From Fibrobacter sp. (GTDB lineage: Bacteria > Fibrobacterota > Fibrobacteria > Fibrobacterales > Fibrobacteraceae): a DNA stretch of 64,000 bases. The notes under the pieces are model-generated. The model did not search any database, was not told the origin of the DNA, and worked only from the letters and a program-made list of their open reading frames with translations. Every line of letters begins with the position of its first letter. The stretch's first letter is position 1. The stretch is from NCBI GenBank assembly GCA_024399015.1, contig JAKSIC010000011.1, positions 1-64,000 on the forward strand, in the 5' to 3' direction. Both the position numbers and the translations under genes were made by a program. This document shows, one piece after another, positions 27,464 to 43,079 of the stretch.

Positions 27464-28441
27464 TTAGTCCTTGAGGCAACGCAAACTTTGACCGTAGTAC
27501 TTGTAGTAGCCGTTCTGGGCCGCGTCGGCGTCTTCGTAGTAGAAGACCTGGTACCACGCGTAGCCGCTATTGTACTCAGAGGCAGACCACAAGCAGGCGT
27601 CGCGGCCCTCATAGCTGAAATTGCCATTGTCGTCCCTGCAACCGGCGGGGAGCACCGAGAAGCCATACTTGTCGGTACCGTTACCGCTCTTGCCGTTATA
27701 GCCATTATTCCAGCCACTGGTGGATTTCAACATCTTACCGGCAGTGCTGGAACCACCGATGTAGGTGTACAGAGTGCTGTACTCCTCGTTCGTGGGCACA
27801 TGCCAGCCCTCGGGGCAAATGCCGCGGTGGGGGCTATTGGGGGTACAGGTCTTGCCATAGCCACACTCTGTTCCTGCGTTTACGCTGAACTGTGCAGCAC
27901 TATCCATCACGGCACTCCAGGTATAAAGGCGACCGTACTTCTCGCAGTTAGAAGCTTTGTTGTCGTAGCACCAGCTGGTGGAATCGGAAGTGTATCTGCT
28001 GTTATTGAACTTCACGCCAGTGTATGCGTAGTTCAGGTTCTCGGCCATCCAAGTCTGGGTGCCGATGGTTACGGTCTTGTACACTTGGCCATCGCGGGCA
28101 TCGGTAAACTCGCCATAGTCAATGTTTGGGTTCAGGTACTGCCAGGCGAGTTTGGAGTCGCTAGGATCCTCGGTCGGGGCCGAGGATGACGAGGAAGAAC
28201 TTACAACCGACGAAGAAGATGACTTCGCAGAACTAGAGGAAGTTACTGAGCTGGAACTTACTACAGAACTACTGGATTGCTTCGCTTCGCTCGGGATGAC
28301 ACTGGAGGAAGACACTTCAGCGGGATTTTCATCCCCGGACGAACCATTCGCAGAAGTGCTGTCATCACAGGCCACAAGGCCCAAAGCCAGCGCAAACGCA
28401 ACACTTGTCAAGAAATTCTTTTTCATTTTTTCATTTTTCAT
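27464..28441 (-). CDS. FISUMP-domain lipoprotein
   Basis: A 325-residue protein from MKNEKMKKNF (AGGA at 8 nt spacing; a downstream ATG at 28426 is possible). The signal peptide ends at a lipobox (LALGLVAC). A long Ser-rich linker runs to about residue 90 and includes SSSVIPSEAKQSSSS, whose VIPSEAKQ is read from a dispersed repeat. The remainder is the Fibrobacter succinogenes major paralogous domain (PF09603): VYKTVTIGTQTWMAENLNY, GRLYTWSAVM, CPEGWHVPTNEEY, GFSVLPAGCR, LWSASEY and the final LRCLKD. The family is thought to be surface-exposed; its ligand is unknown. Confidence 0.93.
   Translation of the reverse strand: MKNEKMKKNFLTSVAFALALGLVACDDSTSANGSSGDENPAEVSSSSVIPSEAKQSSSSVVSSSSVTSSSSAKSSSSSVVSSSSSSSAPTEDPSDSKLAWQYLNPNIDYGEFTDARDGQVYKTVTIGTQTWMAENLNYAYTGVKFNNSRYTSDSTSWCYDNKASNCEKYGRLYTWSAVMDSAAQFSVNAGTECGYGKTCTPNSPHRGICPEGWHVPTNEEYSTLYTYIGGSSTAGKMLKSTSGWNNGYNGKSGNGTDKYGFSVLPAGCRDDNGNFSYEGRDACLWSASEYNSGYAWYQVFYYEDADAAQNGYYKYYGQSLRCLKD
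28274..28300. repeat. Dispersed GTCATCCCGAGCGAAGCGAA-type repeat, translated in frame
   Basis: On the minus strand GTCATCCCGAGCGAAGCGAA and GCAATCC lie inside the Ser-rich linker of the FISUMP lipoprotein and are read as VIPSEAKQS. Its relatives at 10261 and 56727 are intergenic. Confidence 0.65.
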
Positions 28442-28492
28442 TTTCCATTTCCTTGCAAAAATTTCAGAGAGATTCAAGAACAGCCTCTATTT

Positions 28493-29248
28493 TTATGCAG
28501 AATAGCTCGAGCGAATCTTAAAAGCCATGATGGCAAAAGCTCCGGCCACGTTCATGCTGGCCTTGCGCCCCGCCATGGGAATGGTCACCTTCATGGTGGT
28601 TGCGGCCATGATTTCGGGAGCGATTCCCAACTCCTCGTTTCCCAAGATAATCAGTCCCTTTTCCGGCCACGTTACTTTGTTTATATCGGGAATGTCTTCG
28701 CCGGTTTCAAGGGCGATAATCTCGTAGCCATTTTCCTTATGCCAGTTGATGCAGTCAAAGGGATCTTCCCAGCGCTTGATGGGAATCCATTCCTGGCAGC
28801 CGCGGGCGGCACTTTTCACGGTGACGTGGTCGGGACTGCAGCTGTAACCGGAAAGATGAACGCCTTCCAGGCCGAAGCAATCGGTGCTTCGAATGATGGA
28901 GCCTACATTAAAGGCACTGCGGAGGTTATGAACCAGCACCGCAAACTGAATAGGCTTTTCGTTTGCAACCTCGCGGTCGCCCGGTTCCTGCTCCAGATAA
29001 ACGTCACGTTCAAAGCCAAGGCCTGCCCGAGTACGGAAGGTCTTGTACAAGTCTATCATCTGAGCCTGATTCTTGCCTACCAGAGTTTCTTCTGCAGGAA
29101 GCTTCATCCATTGGGCGTAGGTTTCAAATTCGCGGCGAGCGCGGGGAACGTCATCGCCCAACTGCAAAATGATGACACGCAGAAGTTCCGCCAAGCGCTT
29201 GTACTTGGAGGTTTCCTTTGTGGCAAGAAATTTCTTTTCGGAGAACAT
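28493..29248 (-). CDS. SpoU-family RNA 2'-O-methyltransferase (TrmH-like)
   Basis: A 251-residue SPOUT methyltransferase using S-adenosylmethionine to methylate a ribose in tRNA or rRNA. The N-terminal 100 residues are helical. Family blocks are NLRSAFNVGSIIRSTDCFG (about 108-126), LIILGNEELGI (about 198-208) and IPMAGRKASMNVAGAFAIMAF (about 223-243), the trefoil-knot cofactor site; the last block has SMNVAGA where SLNVSVA is usual. The exact target cannot be told. A heptad array ends 3 nt before its ATG and no Shine-Dalgarno is present. Confidence 0.88.
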   Translation of the reverse strand: MFSEKKFLATKETSKYKRLAELLRVIILQLGDDVPRARREFETYAQWMKLPAEETLVGKNQAQMIDLYKTFRTRAGLGFERDVYLEQEPGDREVANEKPIQFAVLVHNLRSAFNVGSIIRSTDCFGLEGVHLSGYSCSPDHVTVKSAARGCQEWIPIKRWEDPFDCINWHKENGYEIIALETGEDIPDINKVTWPEKGLIILGNEELGIAPEIMAATTMKVTIPMAGRKASMNVAGAFAIMAFKIRSSYSA

Positions 29249-29287: not shown

Positions 29288-30538
29288 CTATTGCGCAGCG
29301 GGAATATGTTCAGCGCCTTCGGCGGCCATGTTCTTGTCCATCTGGGTGCGGGTCAGAGCGTTCACCGCATCGGTCAGGCGGTCGATAGCCTTGATCAACT
29401 CATCCATCTTGGCATCGCTTGCACCACCTGCGATTGCGGCGGCAGCCTGTGCCTTGACTTCGGCGACATTTGCAACGGGCTTAGCGGTTTCGGGAACCTT
29501 GCCCAGCCAAATGTCCGGCCAGCGGTCATTACCGGAATGATAAGTAATACGTGCCGCAGTTTCTACCGGCTCACCAATTTTCCACATATAAAGTTCGTAG
29601 TCGAACATGTCGTGGTCGTGGCCCTTGTCGGTTGCACCCCACACAAGCCACTTGCCATCGGGAGAAAGTCTCGGGAAGTATTCGTGACTGCGGCGGCCCG
29701 GGAGGTCCATCAAGCGGACATTCTTGGGAATACCGAAGAAGCCCACCTTTTCCACCTGCTTGCCATCCTTGGCAGAGAACCAAAGGATTTCGCTGGGAGC
29801 GGCAGTGCCACCATTACCTGTGGGGTTCACACGATAGAGCTTGCTACCATCAAAATTCCAGTCAATCTGGCAGCCGTCACCGGACTTGGTCCAGCTATTC
29901 TTTTCAAGATCCCAGACGCCAGTCTCACGCATGGAGCCGCGGAGAGTAATTGCCAAATGCTTGCCATCAGGACTCATATTCGGTTCCTGGAGGATCACGC
30001 CAGACTTATTGAAAGCCTTTTCACCATCCAGCACCATGGTTTCTGCCTTAGAAGCAATATCCATGGTGAATACTTTGCCTGCACGGCTAAAGACGATGGT
30101 CTTGCCATCCGGACGCCAGGTACCCCAAGTAGCGTTTTCCACAACCTTAGTCTGGTTTGAACCGTCGATATCCATGACCCACAAGTCCCACTTTTCAGGA
30201 TAGTTGGCATCGTTTTCAGGAACCCAGCCACCCTTGCTGCGGTTAAAAAGAACCTTGGAACCATCGGGGGCGATTCGAGGGAACCAGTCCACATTGTCGC
30301 TATTGGTCAAAGCGTGGGCACCAGTACCATCGGCATTCATGAGCCAAATATCGTGATGAGAATTTGCACGGCTGGTAGACCAGGCGATAACACCTTCCAC
30401 CTTACCCTTCAAGGCATCCAAGGCCTTCTGTTCATCGGCGGTGGGGTCCACGGCAGCCCCTGTGGGGGCACCCTGCTGGGCATAAGCGGAACAAGCCAAG
30501 GCAAAAGCGGAAACCAATGCAAATTTCTTCATTTTCAT
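29288..30538 (-). CDS. Secreted TolB-like beta-propeller protein
   Basis: A 416-residue protein from MKMKKFALVSAFALACSAYAQ, with GAGG in position ahead of the ATG. Several PD40-type WD-like repeats are visible: DIWLMNADGTGAHALTN, WFPRIAPDGSKVLFNR, DLWVMDIDGSN, TWRPDGKTIVFSR, MSPDGKHLAITLRG, YFPRLSPDGKWLVWGA. The last 60 residues are an Ala-rich helical tail (EVKAQAAAAIAGG, MDELIKAIDRLTDAVNALTR). The propeller probably binds protein or glycan partners at the cell surface or in the periplasm; no enzymatic motif is seen. Confidence 0.8.
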   Translation of the reverse strand: MKMKKFALVSAFALACSAYAQQGAPTGAAVDPTADEQKALDALKGKVEGVIAWSTSRANSHHDIWLMNADGTGAHALTNSDNVDWFPRIAPDGSKVLFNRSKGGWVPENDANYPEKWDLWVMDIDGSNQTKVVENATWGTWRPDGKTIVFSRAGKVFTMDIASKAETMVLDGEKAFNKSGVILQEPNMSPDGKHLAITLRGSMRETGVWDLEKNSWTKSGDGCQIDWNFDGSKLYRVNPTGNGGTAAPSEILWFSAKDGKQVEKVGFFGIPKNVRLMDLPGRRSHEYFPRLSPDGKWLVWGATDKGHDHDMFDYELYMWKIGEPVETAARITYHSGNDRWPDIWLGKVPETAKPVANVAEVKAQAAAAIAGGASDAKMDELIKAIDRLTDAVNALTRTQMDKNMAAEGAEHIPAAQ

Positions 30539-30755
30539 AAAAACCTCAAAAACAGGCAATATTACCGAAGAATATTACCAAAATTCTTTAAAAAGATAGC
30601 AAGGAGCCATAAAAAAACAGGACAAAACATCCCACATCGTCCAAAAGAAGATGATTTAGAACACATTTGTTTCTTTCCGTAAACACCAAATTACTTACAT
30701 CACGTACTCCTAAAGGTTTATGAATATATCTTTTGAAAAAAAAATGAGGATGTTT

Positions 30756-32219
30756 ATGAAGTTTTTATCTATTCCCGCTCTCGCCTGCGCCATGACCCTG
30801 GGTTTTGGCCTGGCCTCCGCACAGACAATCACCCCCTCCCGCGTGGGTCCCGTTAGCCAGTATGGCCAGCTCATGACCGGCAAGAACTCTGCCGGCGAAG
30901 GTCGCATTTACGGTTCCTGTCAGGGTGTAAAAGACGGCGCCGAAGTCCAGGTCCGCGGTATGAGCCTTTACTGGAGCCTGATGCCCCAGGCTGTAGAATA
31001 CTGGAGCGAAGAAGGCGTTTCCACCATGGTAAGGGACATGAACATCCAGATTGTTCGTGCAGCCATGGCAACCGGCAATGAAGACTGGTCCGGTGAATAC
31101 AATGGACAGAAGCTTCAAGGCTATGGATCTAACCCGAGCCTTCAAAAGAACTTGATGAAGACCGTGGTAGAAGCCGCCATCAAGAACGACATTTACGTCA
31201 TTATCGACTGGCATTCCCACGAAGCCACATCGCAGACTGATGCTGCAAAGGGATTCTTTGAAGAAATGGCCAAGACTTACGGCCAGTACGACAACGTGAT
31301 TTTCGAAGTATTCAACGAACCCACAGACATCGCCTGGGGCAACATTAAGAATTACGCAAACCAGGTTATTTCCACGATCCGTCAGTACTCTGACAACCTG
31401 ATTCTGGTAGGCACCCGTTCTTGGGACCAGCATCCGGAAGAAGTTATCGGTCAGGAAGTCAACGACAGCAAGAAGAACACCGCCTATACCTTGCACTACT
31501 ACGCCAACAGCCACTGTGTCAGCGGCAACTATGACTGGGGTGGAAGTTGCGAAGGCGCCAACGGCGAAAAGGCTATTAAGGCCGGTCTCTCTGTTTTCGT
31601 TTCTGAATGGGGAACTGCCGACGCCAATGGCGGTGGCAACCCGGACCAGGGCAAGAATTCCCAGTGGCAAACATTCATCAACAAGTACAAGCTTTCCTGG
31701 GCTAACTGGTCAGCTTCCTACATTAGCGAAGGCACCGCAGCTTTCGCCAGCGGTTCCAACAAGAATAGTCTCCAGTACACCACGTCCGGTAATTTGGTCA
31801 AGGGTTATCTTGCAACCAACCCCACTACCTACACTGCATGCGCAACTGGCGGCTCTCAGCAGGGTGGTCAACAGCAGGGTGGCGATCAGGGTGGCCAGCA
31901 GCAGGGTGGCGATCAGGGTGGCGATCAGGGTGGCCAGCAAGGCGGACAGCAGCAAGGTGGCCAACAGGGCGGTCAACAGCAGGCTATCAACAGCTTCGTT
32001 CCGGCATCCGCTCTTAGCGTAACCTTCAGCGGCAAGGCTCTGGAAATTTCCGGCGTGAATGCCGCAAACGTTGAACTGTTCGACCTGAAGGGCCACAAAC
32101 TCATGATGATCGACGGCGTAAGCGGCACCCTTTCCTTGGCATCCCTCCCCCAGGGCATGTACATGGTGAAGGTTTCCAGCGGTTCCGCAAGCTCCGTTAA
32201 AGCAATCAGCATCAAGTAA
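30756..32219 (+). CDS. Secreted GH5 endoglucanase (cellulase)
   Basis: A 487-residue protein from MKFLSIPALACAMTLGFGLASAQ; GAGG precedes ATG 30756, so the earlier in-frame ATG 30720 is less likely. GH5 subfamily 2-like catalytic domain (about 25-345): VIIDWHSHE, VIFEVFNEP with acid/base E188, and VFVSEWG with nucleophile E284. It cleaves internal beta-1,4-glucan bonds. A Gln/Gly linker (QQGGQQQGGDQGG repeats, about 367-411) joins a C-terminal domain ending VELFDLKGHK...LPQGMYMVKV, similar in shape to type IX secretion sorting domains (inference) and unlike the module in the xylanases. Confidence 0.93.
   Translation: MKFLSIPALACAMTLGFGLASAQTITPSRVGPVSQYGQLMTGKNSAGEGRIYGSCQGVKDGAEVQVRGMSLYWSLMPQAVEYWSEEGVSTMVRDMNIQIVRAAMATGNEDWSGEYNGQKLQGYGSNPSLQKNLMKTVVEAAIKNDIYVIIDWHSHEATSQTDAAKGFFEEMAKTYGQYDNVIFEVFNEPTDIAWGNIKNYANQVISTIRQYSDNLILVGTRSWDQHPEEVIGQEVNDSKKNTAYTLHYYANSHCVSGNYDWGGSCEGANGEKAIKAGLSVFVSEWGTADANGGGNPDQGKNSQWQTFINKYKLSWANWSASYISEGTAAFASGSNKNSLQYTTSGNLVKGYLATNPTTYTACATGGSQQGGQQQGGDQGGQQQGGDQGGDQGGQQGGQQQGGQQGGQQQAINSFVPASALSVTFSGKALEISGVNAANVELFDLKGHKLMMIDGVSGTLSLASLPQGMYMVKVSSGSASSVKAISIK
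31855..31985 (+). repeat. Coding minisatellite for the Gln/Gly-rich linker of the endoglucanase
   Basis: Repeats of CAGGGTGGYSAWCAG-type units encode QQGG and DQGG runs. The region is internal to the GH5 gene and probably varies in length between strains. Confidence 0.75.
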
Positions 32220-32287: not shown

Positions 32288-33697
32288 TTACCGATCAAAT
32301 ACTACAAAGTATTCGTCTTCGTGGACTCGATTCCAAGTCCCTTTTTTAGAGTTCAAATCTTCAATCAGTTTACCCCAACGGGCATAATAACGCGTTGGTA
32401 AAATCACTCGGCCGATTTGATTCTGTACAGCATATTCGGCAAATGCTTCTGGATTTTCTGCAAAGCCGAGATACTGTTCAAAGAAATCCGCTGTTTTCAA
32501 AATAAAGCGGCCGTCAATGTACGTGGAATCAGAAGGATTCACAAAGGCCAAGTAACCGCCGGCACGGTCATCATTGAAAAGCCGTCCATCATGAGAATTG
32601 GTCTTCATCCATTCCGCGGCAGCCACAGGCACACGTTGCGCGGAAACCATGGTAGAATCGTAGGCAAGCAAAGACCTCCCCCACAAACCAAGAACGAAGG
32701 CAACCGCAACAAGGTTTGCATACTTGGTAAAGGGTAATTCCGGAATCATCGGAAGCACCACATTCAAGAACACCGGCAAGAACAACACAAAATTTCTTTC
32801 TGCCACCAAAGCCAAGATTGCAGTGGTGCAAAGTACAATCTGTTTGAGAATACGATTTTCAGCGTGCAAGGCCCTATTCTTAATCATCCCTACAAGCTGT
32901 TTTACAGCATAAACCAAGCCCGTCACAACACACGCAAGCATCAGCAAGGATGTCCAGAAATTCTCCCCCTCCAAAAGCAATGTCAAAGGAGAACGATTCT
33001 CCGCAATTTCCTTGGCAAAAATAGTGGCAGAGGGACTCAAACCTACTAAGCGGTTTAACAACTCGAAGGGATAAGCCGCTAACAGCAAACCGTCACTATG
33101 CAAGAACGGCATTCCAAACATGGCAAGAGCAAATAACGCCAGCAAAGCTAGACGATCAAGGTTGTTCCTATCAAAATATGCCGCGACCGTTGCAATTCCA
33201 AAAATCGGTCCCAGAATATACAGTCCCTGGCACCTGCACCAAATCCACTGAAGGAATAAAATTCCGATTGCTCCCGCCCAGCGTTTTTTTGAATCATCAT
33301 ACCCCTGGGCTAGCCAAGGAAGAACATTCCAGTAAATACCCAGGAAAAGCAAGCTGAACACAACGGGACGAATTTCAAACTGGTAGCGGAAAACAAAAAG
33401 AATCACAATTGTTAAAGCTACCGCAATTTTCGAAAGCTTCACCCGTCGCAAGAAAAGGCAGAAGACACTCCCCCACAACAACGCCTTGAAAGCCACCAGC
33501 AGCGGTGCGCCACCTACGTTGTAGATTGCAGCAATGGTCTGTTGGAAAAATTCGTGAATATTCACGACAGGTTCGCGAACAGGGGTCCACGTGGTCACCC
33601 ATTCCCTAGCACAAGCCAAATGCCACCACACGTCCGTATCGGTCAACGGAAAAATTGCAAAAAGAACAACCGCAATGGAGACAATCAAGCAGTACAT
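32288..33697 (-). CDS. Polytopic membrane protein, GT-C-like
   Basis: A 469-residue protein with about ten to twelve hydrophobic segments. Early in the sequence DTDVWWHLACAREW (D20-W33) resembles the first-loop acidic motif of GT-C glycosyltransferases, which use polyprenyl-phosphate sugars. A soluble C-terminal portion (about 370-469) contains NDDRAGGYLAF, DSTYIDGRF and EYFVVFDR. No named family is recognised; a glycan- or lipid-linked transfer role is inference. It is the last gene of a six-gene minus-strand unit; its start codon abuts the stop of the upstream gene. Confidence 0.6.
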   Translation of the reverse strand: MYCLIVSIAVVLFAIFPLTDTDVWWHLACAREWVTTWTPVREPVVNIHEFFQQTIAAIYNVGGAPLLVAFKALLWGSVFCLFLRRVKLSKIAVALTIVILFVFRYQFEIRPVVFSLLFLGIYWNVLPWLAQGYDDSKKRWAGAIGILFLQWIWCRCQGLYILGPIFGIATVAAYFDRNNLDRLALLALFALAMFGMPFLHSDGLLLAAYPFELLNRLVGLSPSATIFAKEIAENRSPLTLLLEGENFWTSLLMLACVVTGLVYAVKQLVGMIKNRALHAENRILKQIVLCTTAILALVAERNFVLFLPVFLNVVLPMIPELPFTKYANLVAVAFVLGLWGRSLLAYDSTMVSAQRVPVAAAEWMKTNSHDGRLFNDDRAGGYLAFVNPSDSTYIDGRFILKTADFFEQYLGFAENPEAFAEYAVQNQIGRVILPTRYYARWGKLIEDLNSKKGTWNRVHEDEYFVVFDR

Positions 33698-36469
33698 TTA
33701 ATCCAAGGATTTCAGCAGGGAATCCAACCGTTCTGTAAAATGTATGGCACCTTCTGTACAAAGATGGTCATAATCTAGAGCCAAGTCATCCGTGTAGTCG
33801 TGGTCCCCAAAATTATATTCATCCATCACAACCAAGTGGGGATACTTTTTAGACATTTCCTGGAAATGGGCAATGGTTTCCTTTGCAAGGCTCTTCTGTA
33901 CGCCATGCCTGCCAAAGGCTCCTGTCTTTGCATATCCCGGAGATTGCGGGAAGATCGGCAAAATAATTTTGATCCCCAAATCAGATGTTCGTTTAATGAA
34001 TGCATCCAAAGAGTCCATTACTGCATCATAGTATTCTCGTTCTTCATCATCAAAGAGAGAATCCTTGTCGACTTCATTACCCTTCCAGCCACCGGCCTCT
34101 GTGCGGAGCAAGCCCATGGTTTCCACGTAATTTTCCTCATCCTCCTCGGAATAGCCAAGGTATTCATCGACAAAGGAAACAAAATATTCCGGCAAGCCAT
34201 CTTTCCAGAAGTCATGATTTTTATCGTACTCGTATCCCGGAGCCTGCTTGAACACCATCAGATCCATAAATTCCGGAGAGTTACCCTGCAAATCAGGAGA
34301 CAATTCAATCAACAGAACCTTCAGATTTTTAGCATGGTTCAAAACATAATTCTTGGCCAAGTACAGTTCACTCCAAAGTTCACTACCAGAGAATCCAAAA
34401 TTAAAGGACTTGTAGGAAGTCAAATAAGCCGGATAGAAACCACGTTCAGTTCTAGAGGAACCCATGGCATAAAGTTCCATGGAATCCTTCGTATCCCAGA
34501 ACATACGCATCTTGACCTTCATGATTTTTTCGCTAGTTTCAGAAATAAAATCATGATAGACACCAGCACTATCCACCGCAAGGAAGACGTCTTCCGTCGC
34601 AAGGATGTTCTGCTTTATCCACACACAGGGATGCCAAAGTTCATCACCATCAACAAGCGTAATGTAGGAGCTATCCTTCGTATCCATCAGAATGATCTTT
34701 GAATGTGCTCCATTTCTATTTGTCAAAGTCGCCGTCAGGATTCCCGATTCCTTAGAGACCTTTGTTGTATCACCCACCACCCATTCTGTGTGATCGAAGG
34801 TATAGCCTTTCGGGGCATGAATTGCCTGTTTGAGGCTACCGTCTTCATCTGCAACAAAAAGATATTCATGAGCGGCGAACTTGGAGCCTACAAAATCTCG
34901 ACCCGGTTCACCACCGAATTCAAGGAACAGGGTCTGCTTGGAACTACCCTTGCTCAAGCTTGCGTTACAAGCCTGCTTTTCATCGTACCAAAGTTTATCC
35001 GACGCAGATTCCATAACAGTGGATCCATTTTCGGCAACTCGGGCACGAAGAGTTCTAGCGCCAGAAACAGCAAGACTGTTATCACTGCTAATGCCATCAT
35101 GATAAGCCCCATCAAAAAGCTTCACCGGCTCACCAAACTTTCCATTGGCGAAAGGAACCTGCCAAGTGCTCATTTCCTTGAATATGGCAAGATCATTATT
35201 TTCTCCGGCATCGGAAACATAGACAATAACAGTATCACCATTGGGAAGAACTCTCCAACGAGGAATTGCAGCAGATTCCACATCCAACTTTACAAGGCCA
35301 TCACCTGCAGAATTCAACTTTCTTACATAAAGTTCGGATGTTCCCATTTGGCCTTCTGGCATGGTGCAGAACGCCACCAGCTTTCCATCCGGGGAAATGT
35401 CAGGATGGTAGGCGTTTATGGTATCGGCAATTTCCTTAATTGCAAGATTTCCTGAGGAGTAATCAATGTAGGCCAAGTTTCCGGTAATATCATTTCGGAA
35501 CACCAGCTTAGTAAGGAAGCTACCCGTAAGTTCCTTCACAGACGAAGCGCCGGAACCAACAGTCAAATTGCTTTCTGCCGCAGAACCATCAGAAGACAAT
35601 CTTACGGGATCAGGAATTTTACCAAATGCTAGACGGAAACCAAGGTAGTCATACCTGCTAATAGACGTAATTGCATACACATCTAAGCGCGAAAGATTTG
35701 AAATGGATTGAGCCTCGTTACGGAAACTGCCGCCCTTTACGATACGTTCGCCAAGAGTTCCGCCATCCGTTGCTCCGACATAGTTCGTGACTGTTGTGTC
35801 CTTGAAATACCCAAGCCAGCCATCGACCCATTCCATCACATTGCCTTCCATATCGCACAGGCCTAAATAGTTTCTAGGCTGAACACATGTGAAATGGGTT
35901 TCGTAGTCAGAAATTTCCGAAGACCAGGCATGTTTTACATTCCAGCCAGGTTTAGAGGCATAGACCCATTCTGCTTCCGTCGGCAAACGGTAGCCTTCAA
36001 CGTCATAATTGACCTTTAAGCCCTCAAGTTCGATGCAATGATAATTGATGTCGAATTTCGCAGAATAGTAACTGTAAACGGTGTCAAATCCATCTCGCTT
36101 ACTGAGGGTATTTGCAAACAAGATTACATCATTGAAATTCATCAAGGATGCAGGCATTCTTTCACCTTCGCAAGGAACAGTAGAACCTACTCTGGACATC
36201 ACAAGATTGAATTCGGAACAAGTAATTTCCTGTTCTCCGATGTAGTAGTTATATGAAAACTCTACTTTCATCGGATTACGTTCTTTGGGATGAGCCTTGG
36301 AATCCGCTTTACCAAGAGTAACACTTTCACCCTTGGCTTTTACGAAAACGAAACCTTCGAGTTCAATCAAGTCCTCATTAGGAGCCACATGGATTCTGCC
36401 AGAATCGCAGGAACCCATAAAGCAGGCAACCATTGCCACTACAAATATTTTCAGGACTTTTAAAAACAC
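33698..36469 (-). CDS. TIGR02171-family lipoprotein (FGE-like, propeller and SGNH-like modules), paralog 1
   Basis: A 923-residue lipoprotein (MFLKVLKIFVVAMVACFMGSC, lipobox Cys at 21). Residues about 35-290 resemble the formylglycine-generating (SUMF1) fold: GYRLPTEAEWVYAS, CDMEGNVMEWVDGW, VKGGSFRN, YLGFRLAFG, without the catalytic Cys pair that I can see. The middle 330 residues are a beta-propeller (YHPDISPDGKLVAFCT, IPRWRVLPNGDTVIVYVS). The C-terminal 300 residues start with MGSSRTERGF and end with DDLALDYDHLCTEGAIHF, resembling block I and the Asp-His block of SGNH hydrolases. This matches the Fibrobacter family TIGR02171; function unknown. Located 5 nt after the sister gene. Confidence 0.85.
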   Translation of the reverse strand: MFLKVLKIFVVAMVACFMGSCDSGRIHVAPNEDLIELEGFVFVKAKGESVTLGKADSKAHPKERNPMKVEFSYNYYIGEQEITCSEFNLVMSRVGSTVPCEGERMPASLMNFNDVILFANTLSKRDGFDTVYSYYSAKFDINYHCIELEGLKVNYDVEGYRLPTEAEWVYASKPGWNVKHAWSSEISDYETHFTCVQPRNYLGLCDMEGNVMEWVDGWLGYFKDTTVTNYVGATDGGTLGERIVKGGSFRNEAQSISNLSRLDVYAITSISRYDYLGFRLAFGKIPDPVRLSSDGSAAESNLTVGSGASSVKELTGSFLTKLVFRNDITGNLAYIDYSSGNLAIKEIADTINAYHPDISPDGKLVAFCTMPEGQMGTSELYVRKLNSAGDGLVKLDVESAAIPRWRVLPNGDTVIVYVSDAGENNDLAIFKEMSTWQVPFANGKFGEPVKLFDGAYHDGISSDNSLAVSGARTLRARVAENGSTVMESASDKLWYDEKQACNASLSKGSSKQTLFLEFGGEPGRDFVGSKFAAHEYLFVADEDGSLKQAIHAPKGYTFDHTEWVVGDTTKVSKESGILTATLTNRNGAHSKIILMDTKDSSYITLVDGDELWHPCVWIKQNILATEDVFLAVDSAGVYHDFISETSEKIMKVKMRMFWDTKDSMELYAMGSSRTERGFYPAYLTSYKSFNFGFSGSELWSELYLAKNYVLNHAKNLKVLLIELSPDLQGNSPEFMDLMVFKQAPGYEYDKNHDFWKDGLPEYFVSFVDEYLGYSEEDEENYVETMGLLRTEAGGWKGNEVDKDSLFDDEEREYYDAVMDSLDAFIKRTSDLGIKIILPIFPQSPGYAKTGAFGRHGVQKSLAKETIAHFQEMSKKYPHLVVMDEYNFGDHDYTDDLALDYDHLCTEGAIHFTERLDSLLKSLD

Positions 36470-36474
36470 GGCTT

Positions 36475-39252
36475 TTAATCTAACAATTTGAGCAAAGAAT
36501 CAATTTTTGCAGTTAGGACCAAACCACCCTTATCATTTAAGTGGTCATAATCATATGCCAATTCGTCGGCATAATCATGATCACCCATTTTGTTTTCATC
36601 CATCATGATAAAGTTGGAATATTGGGATTCCATGTCCTTGATTCTTTCAAGGATTTTTTCTGCATGGGAACGACGCATTCCGTGACGGCCCAAAGCGCCT
36701 GTGGTCTTAAAGTACGGACTTTGCGGGAAAACAATACCAAGCACAAGAACATCCTTATTGCCAGCAGCATCTATGATTTCCTTCAACTCATCAAGAGAAC
36801 GCTCGTAAGAGGAATTGTTGTCACTCCAAGTAGAATCTTCCACCAAGGCTGCAGCGTTAAAACCTCCGGTGGTCCAGGAATTATATTCCTTTTTCTGGTA
36901 CCATCCCATATTTTCATGGAAAATGGCAATATCAGGATAGCCCTCCTCATATGTACGTGCAATTTCCTTTAAAACATCCACATTCTGGTTTTTCCAGAAA
37001 TCATGGTTTGCATCGTAGCGATATCCCGGGAAAGAAAGAATATTGCTTTTCACATTAGTCATGGCCGATTTGGACCACAAGTCAAGATCAAGGCCAACAA
37101 CGAGGACCTTCAAATTTTCACAATGATTCAAGACATAATTCAAGGATAAGTAATAAATCACATCCATGTCAGAAGGAATTGTGGCCATGTTGAAGGAACG
37201 ACCATAAGCCATATTGGATGCGGCAAAGCCTTGGCTCATTCGAGAAGAGCCCAATCCCACAACCTTCAAGGAATCAATTTCCTGCCAGAAAATATTCATC
37301 TTCACAGAAAGCAGCGGATCTTCCGCCAAGTTGTTCAGGTAAACCCCAGCACTGTCCAAATCAAAATCTGAATCGGAGGTCACATGAGAAGAGTTCTTGC
37401 GCCAAAGGCAAGGGTGCCAAAGTTCGTCTCCCTCAACCAATTCCGTTACAGAACCATCATCCACATTAACTGCAACAATCTTTGTATGTGCGGCATTCGA
37501 ATTGACCAGAACGGCTGCAATCACGTTTTCCTTTTGATCAGCTTCATATCCGTTGTTCAAGGCCCATTCGCTATGATCAAAAGTATAACCCTTTGGTGCA
37601 GCGACGTTTCCAATCAGTTCTCCCAAGCTATCCACAATGAAAATCTGTTCGTGGACTCTATATTCAGAACCAATAAAATCCTTGCCCGGACCTTTACCAA
37701 AATCAAGGAACAAGGAACGTTTGGTCAAATCCTTTGCAAGGGATACATTACAAGCCTGGAACCCATCATACCAGGAAGTTTCCTTGACTGCAGAACCATC
37801 GACAATCCTCGATCTAAAAATTGTTGATCCTGTAACTGCCAAATTGCCATCGGCGCTGACCCCACCATGGTAGGAGCCATCAAACAATTTTTCTGGAGTG
37901 CCAAACTTCCCGTTTTTGAAGGAAACCTGCCAAGTAGAATTTTTCTTAAAATCGCTTTCATTGTTACCGGCACTGGATACGTAGACAATAACAGTATCAC
38001 CATCTGCAGTAACTTTCCATCTAGGAATTGCAGCATTTTCAACATCAAGTACAACCCTATTCTTGTCTTCGGCGTCCAGCTTTCTAACGTAAACCTTGGA
38101 TTCGCCTTCAAGCCCTTCGAAACTTGTGGAGAAGGCTACGTAGTTACCATCGGGAGAAATATCCGGATGATAACAGTCTAGGGAATCCTTGATTTCCTGC
38201 ACAGCCAAGGTTCCACGGGAATAGTCTACATAAGCAAGATTTCCAGAAAGATCATTTCTAAAAACAAGCTTTGTTGCGAAAGAGCCCGTAAGACGACGGA
38301 TCGTTCCCGAATTTGCCAACGTTACAAAATGACTTTCAGATACATCGCCTGCGCTATTCATCCAGACTGCATCGGGAATTGCGCCATAGGCTAGACGAAA
38401 GCCGATGTAGCCCTCTTTTTTGTAAGACGCCACCGTATAGAAATCACCACGGCTATGCAACTTTATTTGAGATGCAGAAAGGCTGTAGTAGCCCCCCTTA
38501 ACAACGCGTTCACCAAGAGAGCCGCCATCAGGTGCTCCAACGTAGTTGTAAATCAAGGTATCCTTGAAATTTCCTAGCCAATCATTCACCCATTCCAGGG
38601 CATTGCCGGCCATATCGCAAACGAAATTATTCGAAGCATCCTTCGATTCTTTTGCGGAACATACTTCGTGAAGTTTGTTATCGGAATTTTCTAGAGTCCA
38701 GCCATTTTCCGGTTTCCAATTTTGGCTTGCCACGAGAACCCATTCCGCCTCTGTGGGCAAACGATAGCCTTTCATATTGGGCTTAAAAGAAAGGGCTTCG
38801 AGATTGGTGCAATTTCCTTCTGAATTAAAGGTTGCCTTGCCGTACGTATAAACCGTATCCTGTTTTTCCTTTTTACTACGAGCATTCGCAAAAAGAATCG
38901 CATCGTAATAAGTAACATTGGTCATGGGCAAATTATCATTTTCGCACTTTTCACCAGGGAACTCATCCATCAATTCCCGGAACTCACCACAAGTTACTTC
39001 GTGGGTTCCAATCTGGAAATCGTAATCCAGTTTCACAGACATGGCAGGGCGTTCATTGCTTTTGGAGGATTTATTTGTAGTTCCCAGGACAGCAACCGAA
39101 TTAGTTGCCTCCACTAGGACCATTCCCTCCAAGGAGCCTTCACTGATTTTTACAGTAGAATTTGCGGGATTTTTTCCACCCGTACTATCGCAGGCGTTAA
39201 AAACGCACAAGAGAACAAAAAAGAACAGCAACCTAACCATGAGAACCTTCAA
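36475..39252 (-). CDS. TIGR02171-family lipoprotein, paralog 2
   Basis: A 925-residue sister of the previous gene, same module order. Signal and lipobox: MKVLMVRLLFFFVLLCVFNAC. FGE-like block: YRLPTEAEWVLVAS, CDMAGNALEWVNDWLG, VKGGYYS, YIGFRLAYG. Propeller: YHPDISPDGNYVAFST, IPRWKVTADGDTVIVYVS. SGNH-like C-terminus: GLGSSRMSQGF and DELAYDYDHLNDKGGLVL. The two differ clearly in sequence, so this is an old tandem duplication. It lies 35 nt downstream of the SirB1-like gene. Likely anchored in the outer membrane; the reaction, if any, is unknown. Confidence 0.85.
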   Translation of the reverse strand: MKVLMVRLLFFFVLLCVFNACDSTGGKNPANSTVKISEGSLEGMVLVEATNSVAVLGTTNKSSKSNERPAMSVKLDYDFQIGTHEVTCGEFRELMDEFPGEKCENDNLPMTNVTYYDAILFANARSKKEKQDTVYTYGKATFNSEGNCTNLEALSFKPNMKGYRLPTEAEWVLVASQNWKPENGWTLENSDNKLHEVCSAKESKDASNNFVCDMAGNALEWVNDWLGNFKDTLIYNYVGAPDGGSLGERVVKGGYYSLSASQIKLHSRGDFYTVASYKKEGYIGFRLAYGAIPDAVWMNSAGDVSESHFVTLANSGTIRRLTGSFATKLVFRNDLSGNLAYVDYSRGTLAVQEIKDSLDCYHPDISPDGNYVAFSTSFEGLEGESKVYVRKLDAEDKNRVVLDVENAAIPRWKVTADGDTVIVYVSSAGNNESDFKKNSTWQVSFKNGKFGTPEKLFDGSYHGGVSADGNLAVTGSTIFRSRIVDGSAVKETSWYDGFQACNVSLAKDLTKRSLFLDFGKGPGKDFIGSEYRVHEQIFIVDSLGELIGNVAAPKGYTFDHSEWALNNGYEADQKENVIAAVLVNSNAAHTKIVAVNVDDGSVTELVEGDELWHPCLWRKNSSHVTSDSDFDLDSAGVYLNNLAEDPLLSVKMNIFWQEIDSLKVVGLGSSRMSQGFAASNMAYGRSFNMATIPSDMDVIYYLSLNYVLNHCENLKVLVVGLDLDLWSKSAMTNVKSNILSFPGYRYDANHDFWKNQNVDVLKEIARTYEEGYPDIAIFHENMGWYQKKEYNSWTTGGFNAAALVEDSTWSDNNSSYERSLDELKEIIDAAGNKDVLVLGIVFPQSPYFKTTGALGRHGMRRSHAEKILERIKDMESQYSNFIMMDENKMGDHDYADELAYDYDHLNDKGGLVLTAKIDSLLKLLD

Positions 39253-39287
39253 TCAGTATTTGGACAAAAATACAAAATTCGTCATTA

Positions 39288-40019
39288 TCAAAAACTATCC
39301 GGAAGCTTACTCTTGGCAATTTTCTGATTTACAGAAATTCCAGGATACTCCTTAAAGAAATCTTCTGCCATACGGTACCAAGTCAAAGCTTGATGCGGAT
39401 CCGAATCTAGGTAGAGGTTACCCATATTGAACGCAGCCAAGCCCATAAACTGGCGGGTATTCAAAGGCTTAAATTCAAGACCAGTCCAGTTTCCAGCCTT
39501 GTACTTTTCCCGATATTCAGTATCCGTGTATGAGAAACCTTTGCGATTTGGCTCAAGGTTAACGCATTCTTTTTCACCAGCACAATACTGCAAGAACATA
39601 TGACCCGGTAAAAGAATGGTATTCAGAGGAATCTGACGAGCTTCGGCCACCATCATGGCAAGCCAACTCAAGCCAACGCATCCTGACTTGCGATTACTCA
39701 AAACCCGTAGCGGAAGAATGGATTCCTTTTCAACGGCGGCGTCGCCAGCCCCAGCAAATTCGATATTCCAAAACTTCCACAAAAGATTTTTTAGAGATTC
39801 CAACGTGTCTTTTGTAGCATTCAAACTGCTATCATAAAAAGCAAGGCCACGATGCCAATCGTCAACGGAATCAAGGCAAGTGAGGCTCTTATTTTCAAAA
39901 GCGCAAGCCATTTCCCTATAGGAATCGGCCCTTTCACTTCCGCTCCACAATACGGTAAACAAAGAAATCGCCAGAACGGCAGAAAATACCGGCCAAAAGA
40001 GTTTCCTTACCCACCGCAT
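39288..40019 (-). CDS. SirB1/transglutaminase-like protein with N-terminal membrane anchor
   Basis: A 243-residue protein with one N-terminal hydrophobic segment (LFWPVFSAVLAISLFTVLW). SGCVGLSWLAMMVAEARQIP (about 112-131) and LLPGHMFLQY (about 136-145) carry a candidate Cys and His of the Transglut_core2/SirB1 fold, and LEPNRKGFSY follows. The C-terminal part AAFNMGNLYLDSDPHQALTWY looks like a TPR helix pair. The catalytic role is unproven. It sits between the propeller lipoprotein (6 nt) and the TIGR02171 pair (35 nt) in the six-gene unit. Confidence 0.7.
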   Translation of the reverse strand: MRWVRKLFWPVFSAVLAISLFTVLWSGSERADSYREMACAFENKSLTCLDSVDDWHRGLAFYDSSLNATKDTLESLKNLLWKFWNIEFAGAGDAAVEKESILPLRVLSNRKSGCVGLSWLAMMVAEARQIPLNTILLPGHMFLQYCAGEKECVNLEPNRKGFSYTDTEYREKYKAGNWTGLEFKPLNTRQFMGLAAFNMGNLYLDSDPHQALTWYRMAEDFFKEYPGISVNQKIAKSKLPDSF

Positions 40020-40025
40020 AGTCTT

Positions 40026-41096
40026 TTATTTTTTCATCCAGAACGAAACGTGATACATGTCTTTGCCTTCAACAAATTCATCAACCGTTTCTGTTTCCAT
40101 ATTGATCAGAGCGATACGTGTATGGCGATTCTCATTTTTTGAATCTTCCAACGTGCAAATTTCAAAATTTGCATTAGCCAACCATTCCGTATCATTGAAG
40201 GAAAAACCTTCAGGAGCTTCTACAGCTTGAACCACGGTTCCTGTAGAATCTACGACAATCAGTTTTCTGTGACCAATGTAAGATTCACCGACAAATTCAA
40301 CGCCAGCAGATCCAGTCAAATCAAGAAAAGATGTTCGATAGGTTCCGTCTTGGGACAGGGATACATTACAAACCTGATCCCCATTGTACCAAAGGGAGTC
40401 CTTATACGATTTCGAACTGCCATCGCCTTTTACACGATGGTAAAGATTTGCGCCACCGGTTACCGCGAAAGAGAAATCGCTGGAAAGATTGGTGTAGGCC
40501 GGTTTGAATAAAAATTCCGGTGCAGAAAATTCACCATTGGAAAAACGAACAAACCAAGTGGAATATTCCTTCCAATCATCAAACTGATTCAAGCCTGCAA
40601 AGTCAATATAGGTGATGATTGTATCAGAACCTATCACACGCCAGCGGGGAACCGTCGCATTAAGGGCTTTCAGCATGACAATTTTGCCCGTTTTCAAATT
40701 TTGCACATAAAGATTTGACGCAAAATCGGTTCCTTCAAAAGTCGTACAAAAGGCAACCCACTGACCGTCTGGAGAAATTTCCGGATGATAAACATCAAGA
40801 CTATCTGTCATCTTGTAGAACTTAAGATCTTCCGATTCAGACGACGACAATTCTGTATATATCAAGGATCCAGAGACTTCATCACGAAACGTAATTTTTC
40901 CTTGAGTTGCACCAACGAGTTTCAAGATTTCATCGGATTTCTTTAAAGAATGACATTCATCAAATTCTTCAAACTTTCCGGAATCTTGAACAACAATGGT
41001 GTAAGAAGAAACAGAATCTTCACCAACATCATCGGAACAGGCTGCAATGAGAATTACAGCCATAAGTCCCAGAGTATTTCGCAGAGCCTTCAACAT
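40026..41096 (-). CDS. Lipoprotein consisting of a TIGR02171-type propeller only
   Basis: A 356-residue lipoprotein (MLKALRNTLGLMAVILIAAC). Its propeller lines up along its length with the middle module of the two TIGR02171 genes: GKITFRDEVSGSLIYTE, DVYHPEISPDGQWVAFCTTF, VPRWRVIGSDTIITYID, KEYSTWFVRFSNGEFSAPE, SLWYNGDQVCNVSLSQDG, APEGFSFNDTEW, FVEGKDMYHVSFWMK. The FGE-like and SGNH-like parts are missing. It lies 3 nt downstream of the AlgJ/AlgX-like gene. Confidence 0.75.
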   Translation of the reverse strand: MLKALRNTLGLMAVILIAACSDDVGEDSVSSYTIVVQDSGKFEEFDECHSLKKSDEILKLVGATQGKITFRDEVSGSLIYTELSSSESEDLKFYKMTDSLDVYHPEISPDGQWVAFCTTFEGTDFASNLYVQNLKTGKIVMLKALNATVPRWRVIGSDTIITYIDFAGLNQFDDWKEYSTWFVRFSNGEFSAPEFLFKPAYTNLSSDFSFAVTGGANLYHRVKGDGSSKSYKDSLWYNGDQVCNVSLSQDGTYRTSFLDLTGSAGVEFVGESYIGHRKLIVVDSTGTVVQAVEAPEGFSFNDTEWLANANFEICTLEDSKNENRHTRIALINMETETVDEFVEGKDMYHVSFWMKK

Positions 41097-41099
41097 AGA

Positions 41100-43079
41100 T
41101 TAAAGCTTATCCCATTCCATGGGAGACTGCCAGAAATCACGAGCGGTCATCATGTAGATGACAAGGCGTTTGCTCTGCATATCCTTCTTCATTTTCATCA
41201 TGCGGCTGCGAACGCCAGGGCCGCCGCCCCAGCTGGTAGCCACCTGAACATCAAGACCAGTAGCGTAAGCGAGCAAGGAGCCCGGGCCACCGCTCTTCTG
41301 GTCCACAGATTCGAACACGCCTGTAAAGGAGTCGCCCATCAAGAGGATGGGAGCATTCTTGCCGCCCTTGTAGGTTTCGGTGCCCTTGTACACCTTCATC
41401 ACGTTCAAGGTATCTGCGGGGTACTTGGCTTTTTCGGAATCCGGCAAATGTGCCACCAGGTCACCTTCGCGAAGAGTGTTGGTTTCCTGCAGGTTCAAGG
41501 ATCCAGGCTGTGCGCCGGATTCTTCGTACCAGCTATATTGCGTAACGCGACTAGCCAGAAGTTCCATGGCGGCAAGTTCGCCAGGCAGAGCCCAGTGGGT
41601 ATCGTAACGCTGGAAGCTATAATGAGGCGGTTCATCGCCGGCCTTGGCGGCCATCAATGCGGGGTAAATATCCAGCACATCGATTCCTGCTTCAAGAAGC
41701 TCCTGGGTAAAGGCGCGTCCTTCAGGATTGACGCACTGGTCTGCCGCAGTACCCGGGACAATCTTTTCACCGTAGATTTCTTCCTTCACGGGGACAGGCA
41801 CTACCAAAAGCTGAATGCCAAGGGAATCCAGATACTGCTTCAATTCTACCATACGGGGCAGCGGGTTATGGAGGCTGTCCTGTGCGCTGATTTTATCAGA
41901 AAGCAAGTAATTGGCATTGCGACGGAACCATAGGAAACCTCCTTCCACCTTATTGCCATTGGCATCTACTTCAGCCCAAGCATTCTGTTCCTTGGGAAGC
42001 TTCGCCATTTGTTTGGCGAGGGACTTGCGGAATGCAGCCGTAGCTTCGTTCGCAGGGCAAGAGCCCTTCACTGAATTCAGGGTTTCCAAACGGAACGTAG
42101 AAGTGGTATCCAAATGACGATCCACAGGAATCACTTCGCCGGAATTTGCCAAGGAGTCTGCAACATGCTTAGCACGGATAGCTTCCTCGCTCATACGGAA
42201 TGCAGGAACTTCAAAACCGATCCACATGGGAGTACCCATGGGGTTTCCGCGCATCACGGCAAAAGGCTTACCGTTTTCCCAAGGAGCGCCAGCAGTGTGA
42301 GGTTCCAAGTCCGTATTCAAAGTCGGGTACCAGTAGGAAGAAAGTGTGCGAGCCCAGTTCATGGCGTCGTCAGCATTCATTTCCCCAGTCAGGTAGTAAT
42401 TGAAAATTTCAGCTGTTTCACCGTAGGACTTATAGTTCAAGCGACCATAGAAAGGTGCGCGACCAGTCCATGCTGCAGGAGTAACTTCAACCCACCACTC
42501 CACGGAACCATCGCTCATGGGAACGCCCCACATACGGGTTACATTTTGGAAGGCGCGAAAAACTTCCGGTTCATCCCATTTTACTGCTTCCACGGAATTC
42601 AGCACAATGTTCAAGGAGTCGTTGCCCAACTGAGCGTACATCAACTTGGCAAAGGGCTCCCAGGAAATGGGAGCACGGCCTTCAACAATCGCAGGGCGGT
42701 TTGCAGAAAGGGAATCCAGCATAGGGAACGGATAATCAGCAAGGGACGATCCCGCCATCTTGCCTGTATAATTTTCCGGTTTTTCTTCCTTACCCGCCAA
42801 GCGGATGGGATTATTGAAATAGGCGGCAAAATCCAACGCAGCAAGAGTCGGCTTTTCGACAATGCGAATCTGCTTGTTGTCGGCAACAGTGACCGTTTCA
42901 AAATCGGTTTTCGCATCTACGGGAGCCAAACGAGTGGCAAGTGCCGGAGACTCAACCTTGGAATCCGTGGAAACATTCGGTGTACCGCCGGAAGCACATG
43001 CGGAAAGTCCAAAAGATACAGAACCGATAAGGGCTACCAAACTAGTGGCGAAAATCTTGCTGCGAGAATTCTTGCTCAT
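41100..43079 (-). CDS. AlgJ/AlgX-like SGNH O-acetyltransferase-type lipoprotein
   Basis: A 659-residue lipoprotein (FGLSACASGG lipobox, Cys about 28). The C-terminal half is an AlgX/AlgJ-type SGNH domain: LLVVPVPVKEEIY, RYDTHWALPGELAAMELL (Asp-His motif DTHW) and APILLMGDSFTGVFE (nucleophile Ser in GDSFTG), then DVQVATSWGGGPG. Such domains transfer acetyl groups to exported polysaccharides, normally with an MBOAT partner; no MBOAT gene lies in this window. The N-terminal 330 residues (SYWYPTLNTDLEPH, GTPMWIGFEVPAF) are unrecognised. It is the first gene of the unit and is divergent from dus. Confidence 0.8.
   Translation of the reverse strand: MSKNSRSKIFATSLVALIGSVSFGLSACASGGTPNVSTDSKVESPALATRLAPVDAKTDFETVTVADNKQIRIVEKPTLAALDFAAYFNNPIRLAGKEEKPENYTGKMAGSSLADYPFPMLDSLSANRPAIVEGRAPISWEPFAKLMYAQLGNDSLNIVLNSVEAVKWDEPEVFRAFQNVTRMWGVPMSDGSVEWWVEVTPAAWTGRAPFYGRLNYKSYGETAEIFNYYLTGEMNADDAMNWARTLSSYWYPTLNTDLEPHTAGAPWENGKPFAVMRGNPMGTPMWIGFEVPAFRMSEEAIRAKHVADSLANSGEVIPVDRHLDTTSTFRLETLNSVKGSCPANEATAAFRKSLAKQMAKLPKEQNAWAEVDANGNKVEGGFLWFRRNANYLLSDKISAQDSLHNPLPRMVELKQYLDSLGIQLLVVPVPVKEEIYGEKIVPGTAADQCVNPEGRAFTQELLEAGIDVLDIYPALMAAKAGDEPPHYSFQRYDTHWALPGELAAMELLASRVTQYSWYEESGAQPGSLNLQETNTLREGDLVAHLPDSEKAKYPADTLNVMKVYKGTETYKGGKNAPILLMGDSFTGVFESVDQKSGGPGSLLAYATGLDVQVATSWGGGPGVRSRMMKMKKDMQSKRLVIYMMTARDFWQSPMEWDKL

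Follow-up and report, generated by a model that had tools for sequence, protein, structure and literature searches.

A Fibrobacter lipoprotein operon as a probable part of a dispersed envelope-glycan O-acylation system coupled to pentose transfer

We analysed a six-gene operon at positions 32288 to 43079 of a 64,000-nucleotide stretch of Fibrobacter sp. DNA (the window; contig JAKSIC010000011.1, from a genome of 3.34 Mb in 43 contigs). The operon is probably, at roughly 60%, one dispersed part of an MBOAT-SGNH system for envelope-glycan O-acylation that is coupled to lipid-linked pentose transfer. On this reading the pathway would have at least nine components, here called C, M, J, A, T, V, E1, GT2 and E2, with X in addition and, in Fibrobacterota, F. 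The evidence comes from direct observation of gene content, conservation of catalytic residues, co-occurrence across genomes, the GT-C fold of C and an acyl-shuttle motif in M. Synteny, co-occurrence, fold and motifs also support the original prediction, made from the letters of the window, that the operon could build or decorate a surface glycan.

Gene order and co-occurrence across genomes

The genes in and next to the operon, and the dispersed genes of the same genome (G000), are:

41100..43079, minus strand: A, AlgX-like lipoprotein of 659 residues with a circularly permuted SGNH domain (D493-T-H495-W, then G-D-S584); PF16822 at 5.5e-20, lipobox LSAC
40026..41096, minus strand: W (gene 5), TIGR02171 propeller-only lipoprotein of 356 residues; TIGR02171 at 305.7 bits
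39288..40019, minus strand: T, transglutaminase-like (SirB1/Transglut_core2) membrane-anchored protein of 243 residues; PF13369 at 2.4e-10
36475..39252, minus strand: F, TIGR02171 lipoprotein of 925 residues with an FGE-like domain, a propeller and a C-terminal SGNH-like domain; TIGR02171 at 1133.2 bits, PF03781 at 6.6e-25
33698..36469, minus strand: F, second TIGR02171 lipoprotein, 923 residues; TIGR02171 at 1161.6 bits, PF03781 at 2.7e-20
32288..33697, minus strand: C, membrane protein of 469 residues with a GT-C glycosyltransferase fold and a C-terminal periplasmic domain; AlphaFold2 model, Foldseek, VIA-align
30720-32219, plus strand: GH5 cellulase with a type IX secretion system (T9SS) sorting tail, divergent, between C and V
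29288..30559, minus strand: V, periplasmic PD40 propeller protein; 397 bits to V of G016
G000:C2:49567-51390: M and X
G000:C10:53224-54882: J
G000:C8:27590-29442: E1-GT2, with E1 at 27629-28657
G000:C2:16399-17262: E2

As originally described, six open reading frames fill the span on the minus strand. They are separated by 3, 6, 35, 5 and 0 nt and run A, W, T, F, F, C from 5' to 3'. The four lipoproteins and one membrane-anchored protein read from the sequence also hold: a lipobox-like cysteine is present in A (LSAC), W (IAAC) and both large F lipoproteins (FNAC, MGSC), and T has an N-terminal transmembrane segment and no lipobox. The same is true of the AlgJ/AlgX-like, SirB1-like and FGE-like folds, which correspond to PF16822 in A, PF13369 in T and PF03781 in both F.

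We searched 168 Fibrobacterota genomes and drew gene maps of about 60 loci. The expected conservation of gene order is seen across Fibrobacteraceae, in other families and in Myxococcota. In the genus the order is A-T-F(n)-C, where n is 1 in G094, 2 in the window, 3 in G136, 4 in G070, G060, G101 and G075, and 5 in G104; genus g6 has A-T-C-F-F. The conserved unit is A, T, zero to five copies of F, and C. V also belongs to it, although it lies outside the six genes first considered, because the same layout of C, a divergent gene and V recurs in relatives (G094, G092, G136 and G075; loci L155, L156, L162 and L163). W stands outside this order and is not found between A and T at the other mapped loci.

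The acylation genes M, J and A are contiguous in outgroup Fibrobacterota, and are unlinked yet co-occurring in Fibrobacter. We found X-M-J-A-C-V in G016 and G018 (without T there; in G016 T adjoins E1-GT2), X-M-J-A-T-C-V in G006, M-J-A-T-C-V in G044, a genome from the window's own family, the X-M-J-A-T-C set with or without V in G146, and E1-GT2-E2-X-M-J-A in G038. The MBOAT is absent from the operon because the genes are dispersed in Fibrobacter. The original statement that there is no MBOAT partner is thus right for the locus but not for the system, as an MBOAT and an AlgJ-like gene cluster with these genes in outgroups and myxobacteria and lie at G000:C2 and G000:C10 in the genome itself.

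A scan of GTDB genomes with the outgroup A alignment returned 46 loci, from Fibrobacterota and Myxococcota (some of them metagenome-assembled genomes titled Deltaproteobacteria or Proteobacteria). In Sorangium cellulosum So0157-2 (L224) ten abutting genes on the same strand encode C, a SASA esterase, M, J, E2, V, E1, GT2, A and T, with V abutting E1. Among the 24 A-bearing loci outside Fibrobacterota, many of which are on short contigs, the fetched flank contains E1 in 22, V in 18, T in 17 and GT2 in 16; C, M and E2 are near A in 10 each.

Presence and absence of six markers (A, T, C, J, M, E1) were scored from the search tables with hand-set thresholds. All six are present in 91 of the 168 Fibrobacterota genomes and none in 61. 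Restricting the set to completeness of 90% or more and contamination of 5% or less leaves 89 genomes; 58 of these carry all six markers, 28 carry none and three are mixed, so that the markers are concordant in 86. Because the parts are unlinked in Fibrobacter, this is an independent test of their association. Both states are found, concordantly, within families f1, f4, f5 and f7, so that several independent changes agree. M itself is absent from genomes without A, J, T, C and E1, where only MBOAT paralogues (matches of ~1e-48) stay.

Acylation and sugar genes

The match of A to PF16822 (ALGX) scores 72.6 bits against a gathering cut-off of 26.5. D493 and H495 (DTHW) precede S584 (GDS), which is the permuted order described for AlgX (PMC9487903), and the triad is 100% conserved in 35 homologues; against PDB sequences A gave no match, even at E 0.01. 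J is AlgJ-like (PF16822, 7.1e-31), with a 100% conserved Ser-Asp-His triad in the same AlgX-type permuted order. M is an MBOAT, matching PF03062 at 6.9e-26 in Fibrobacterota outside the genus and with 91.4 bits for the copy of the window genome. Its closest solved structures are DltB, and H327 and H287 are 100% conserved in 15 homologues. Every copy of M that reaches its end terminates in FLYFQF or FLYFRF, the one of the window genome in ...NPFLYFQF. An FXYXXF acyl shuttle has been shown for PatA and DltX, and the PatA tyrosine is acetylated (PMC12148441). Judged by these sequences, the features of an MBOAT-SGNH system that we looked for (putative catalytic histidine, shuttle motif and linked SGNH partner) are all present.

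A small secreted protein of ~150 residues, X, usually adjoins M (L174:10998-11390 and homologues). It carries the motif NDLYNYVYVxKYxV...VGxYNPLI, has no Pfam or NCBIfam match, and is a candidate AlgF-like accessory. The window genome encodes a second MBOAT of 617 residues, ending in FIYFQF, in a different gene neighbourhood (L175:8514-10364, G000:C4); it likely represents a separate envelope acylation system.

E1 belongs to the UDP-glucuronate decarboxylase family, and its closest solved structure is the Arabidopsis UDP-apiose/UDP-xylose synthase AXS1 (6h0n). The E1 of the window genome scores 242 bits to 6h0n, against 204 to PbgP3 and 189 to ArnA. The corresponding values for G038 are 362, 236 and 211, and a third E1 obtains 288 to 6h0n and 214 to ArnA. 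Identities are 38-49% to AXS1 and 30-39% to ArnA, the former close to the 43-49% of known bacterial UDP-apiose synthases (PMC5607165). The equivalent of AXS1 Cys100 is kept in 42 of 42 E1 homologues (C87 in the window genome), a position at which ArnA has Ala (PMC12820599). A tree that included AXS1 and ArnA beside E1 has ArnA as its sole outgroup and so cannot prove the grouping, which we base on identity and Cys100 instead. GT2 resembles polyprenyl-phosphate-sugar synthases (DPM1, ArnC and polyprenyl-phospho-GalNAc synthase). It is paired with E1 at every mapped Fibrobacterota E1 locus whose contig runs past E1. E2 is a short-chain dehydrogenase/reductase.

Two further conserved genes lie upstream of E1/E2 (L141:1525-3965, L251:4868-7154) and are possibly components of the system. 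One encodes a propeller-like lipoprotein, the other a protein of ~405-414 residues that has no Pfam match and looks like an outer-membrane barrel. In G000:C8, E1-GT2 is directly followed by what reads as a MoxR-like ATPase, a DUF58-looking protein and a TgpA-like transglutaminase membrane protein (L250:11471-15815).

The membrane protein C, the transglutaminase-like protein T and the TIGR02171 lipoproteins

C belongs to no sequence family and has no match among PDB sequences. Its AlphaFold2 model (predicted local distance difference test, pLDDT, 82; predicted TM-score, pTM, 0.83) confirms the GT-C fold that had been predicted. The top Foldseek matches are DPY19, AglB and STT3, then ArnT and AftA, with a probability of 1.00 for DPY19, AglB, ArnT and AftA, and all significant structural matches are GT-C enzymes. 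VIA-align gives Z-scores of 17.3 for STT3, 16.4 for AglB, 15.9 for DPY19 and 11.8 for ArnT; the C-terminal domain aligns with the globular domain of AglB (3vu0) at Z 9.0. The DxD motif of the original prediction is D20/D22, in the first periplasmic loop, with D22 invariant and D20 nearly so. Other conserved residues are R104, R110, E233-N234 and R301-N302. In T, C114 and H140, the putative catalytic Cys and His of the transglutaminase/SirB1 core fold, and E156 are 100% conserved in 29 homologues; N154/E156 are conserved where the third residue of the triad is expected, with no clear Asp.

Both F proteins match TIGR02171 over the full profile, far above its curated cut-off of 544.35 bits. The family is already named in Fibrobacter, as "TIGR02171 family lipoprotein" in NCBIfam with no stated function, and we found no paper on it. 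The two copies in the window are 43% identical to each other. W corresponds to the propeller part alone (profile positions 292-609) and stays under the cut-off. The window genome has five full-length TIGR02171 genes, and some copies lie away from the operon. F, counted at E 1e-100 or better, accompanies A in 90 genomes, with nine F-only and six A-only.

In formylglycine-generating enzymes (FGE), the catalytic Cys pair binds copper and lies towards the C-terminal end of the domain. We ruled out F as an active enzyme of this type, since no Cys is conserved at positions 200-290 in 51 homologues. With no catalytic Cys pair, the FGE-fold part of F (PF03781, FGE-sulfatase) is, judging from the alignment, a binding or structural domain and not an enzyme. 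In the C-terminal domain Gly-x-Ser and Asp-His are invariant, in line with the SGNH domain originally assigned to the large lipoproteins, but the Pfam support is weak: single members match DUF1574, DltD, Lipase_GDSL_2 or SGNH with E-values of 0.001-0.3. A profile of the domain found no match among PDB sequences at E 10, and the AlphaFold model of F reached a pLDDT of 52 only and was left unused. The domain thus looks weakly SGNH-like, of the DltD/DUF1574 type.

Between T and C, F forms tandem arrays of one to at least five divergent paralogues (loci L158, L159, L157 and L163). This variation in copy number suggests that a binding or enzyme function has diversified. The SASA-family acetylesterase between C and M in Sorangium (L224 2354-3394; PF03629, 1.1e-11) is lipoprotein-like. 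As no F was found at the 24 A-bearing loci outside Fibrobacterota, the fetched myxobacterial ones among them, F and this enzyme may occupy the same esterase slot.

Proposed pathway, alternatives and related systems

In the pathway that we propose, E1 would decarboxylate UDP-glucuronate to a UDP-pentose of the UDP-apiose/xylose type, and GT2 would transfer the pentose to polyprenyl phosphate. Once flipped, the sugar would be passed on by C in the periplasm, the acceptor being a glycan, a lipid or a protein. From acyl-CoA, an acyl group that is probably acetyl would go to the tyrosine (Tyr469) in the C-terminal FLYFQF of M, and from there to the glycan through the SGNH proteins J and A. T, V and F may act on the product as it travels to the outer membrane, by handling, crosslinking, recognising or de-acylating it. 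We infer each reaction, the sugar and the acceptor, the first four steps from the named protein families; the proposal is weakest on what T, V, X, E2 and F do. The donor path, originally called unclear, now has candidates, M for the acyl group and E1 with GT2 for a lipid-linked pentose.

Several observations weigh against this pathway. The Fisher p of ~1e-22 for the co-occurrence is uncorrected for relatedness and ignores shared ancestry, and every member is known here from genes, motifs and predicted folds. F is present in some system-negative genomes (G066, G132, G150) and missing or too divergent in some system-positive ones. The similarity of GT2 to DPM1 and ArnC is modest. The equivalent of AXS1 Cys140 is Ser in the E1 of the window genome and all sampled Fibrobacteraceae, as in ArnA, and Ala in Sorangium; it is Cys in most other Myxococcota. 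With this residue replaced, E1 might instead make UDP-xylose or a UDP-4-keto-pentose. Finally, oligosaccharyltransferases and DPY19 resemble C more closely in structure than ArnT does.

The last point is what one would expect if C were an oligosaccharyltransferase-like enzyme of the STT3/AglB/DPY19 type that glycosylates surface proteins, with M, J and A acylating the protein-linked glycan and F, W and V as clients or chaperones. The ranking of the Z-scores and the match to 3vu0 favour this explanation, but the fold is common to all these GT-C enzymes, so the gaps do not fix the substrate. Moreover, we recognised no recurrent gene for oligosaccharide assembly or for a flippase in the cluster, and GT2 with E1 suggests a single polyprenyl-phosphate sugar; we consider this explanation unlikely. 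We give still less credit to an operon independent of M, J and E1, in which A and F are esterases that strip acetyl groups from plant polysaccharides on the outside of a cellulose-degrading cell, C attaches sugars to the surface lipoproteins, and common ancestry alone links the operon to the other genes. It would fit the T9SS-sorted cellulase between C and V, the F copies outside the operon and the frequent SGNH esterases of F. succinogenes (SASA enzymes Axe6A/6B, PMC9487903). However, A has the AlgX-type order DTHW...GDS and not that of GDSL esterases, in Myxococcota, and to some extent in outgroup Fibrobacterota, the same genes share one cluster with M, J, E1 and GT2, and the markers agree in nearly all good genomes.

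It is very improbable that A works with the second MBOAT (G000:C4:35354) instead of M. That protein does have PF03062 and the shuttle motif, but MBOAT paralogues persist in genomes that lack the other markers whereas M does not, and it is M that adjoins J and A in G044, G146, G016 and G018 and lies near them in Sorangium. A more specific form of the proposed O-acylation and pentose-transfer pathway is tentative, and we would sooner expect it to need revision than to hold: Fibrobacterota and Myxococcota would share a core glycoconjugate at the surface, formed by a dedicated pathway for an apiose-type branched pentose, which polyprenyl phosphate carries, a new subfamily of GT-C enzymes transfers and an MBOAT-AlgJ-AlgX set O-acylates; in Fibrobacter, TIGR02171 arrays would diversify or place it.

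The proposed pathway would give TIGR02171, a named family without assigned function, its first functional context, and would place an apparently orphan locus in a defined pathway that can be tested. An acylated surface glycan that contains pentose is predicted for major rumen cellulose degraders and for myxobacteria, and so is the set of Fibrobacter species without it. The combination of acylation and lipid-linked pentose genes is not described in the literature that we searched, where we found no paper on MBOAT, AlgJ and transglutaminase together or on UDP-apiose with Myxococcota. The original prediction that no described system has this set agrees with this, except that the two large lipoproteins were already a named family.

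By analogy, the acyl side would work like the O-acetylation of alginate, cellulose and peptidoglycan, and the sugar side like the Arn route. With alginate O-acetylation in Pseudomonas (AlgI-AlgJ-AlgF-AlgX) the system shares an MBOAT with an FXYXXF ending and two permuted-SGNH ALGX-family proteins with intact Ser-Asp-His. Here, a pentose synthase, a polyprenyl-phosphate GT2, a GT-C protein and transglutaminase-like and propeller proteins are added, and A has a long N-terminal domain without a PDB sequence match. PatA-PatB and DltB-DltX-DltD likewise combine an acyl-Tyr shuttle MBOAT with an SGNH partner, and the SGNH-like domain of F weakly resembles DltD/DUF1574; the polymer and the partners differ, and glycosyltransfer genes are extra here.

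On the sugar side, the Arn pathway (ArnA decarboxylase domain, ArnC, ArnT) has a UDP-GlcA decarboxylase, a GT2 like a polyprenyl-phosphate pentose synthase and a GT-C transferase. In our system E1 is nearer to UDP-apiose/xylose synthase, C is nearer to STT3/DPY19, MBOAT-SGNH acylation is added, and no ArnB-type aminotransferase or formyltransferase domain was seen in the Sorangium cluster. The apiose operon of Xanthomonas pisi (XpUAS, XpApiT, XpXylT; PMC6193724) also joins an enzyme of the UDP-apiose/UDP-xylose synthase (UAS) family to glycosyltransferases, but these are a GT90 and a different GT2 that act on UDP-sugars. An earlier study reported only scattered synthases and no conserved operon for bacterial UAS genes (PMC5607165), whereas the E1-GT2 pairing is conserved across two phyla; if the sugar is apiose, this would be a conserved bacterial apiose pathway.

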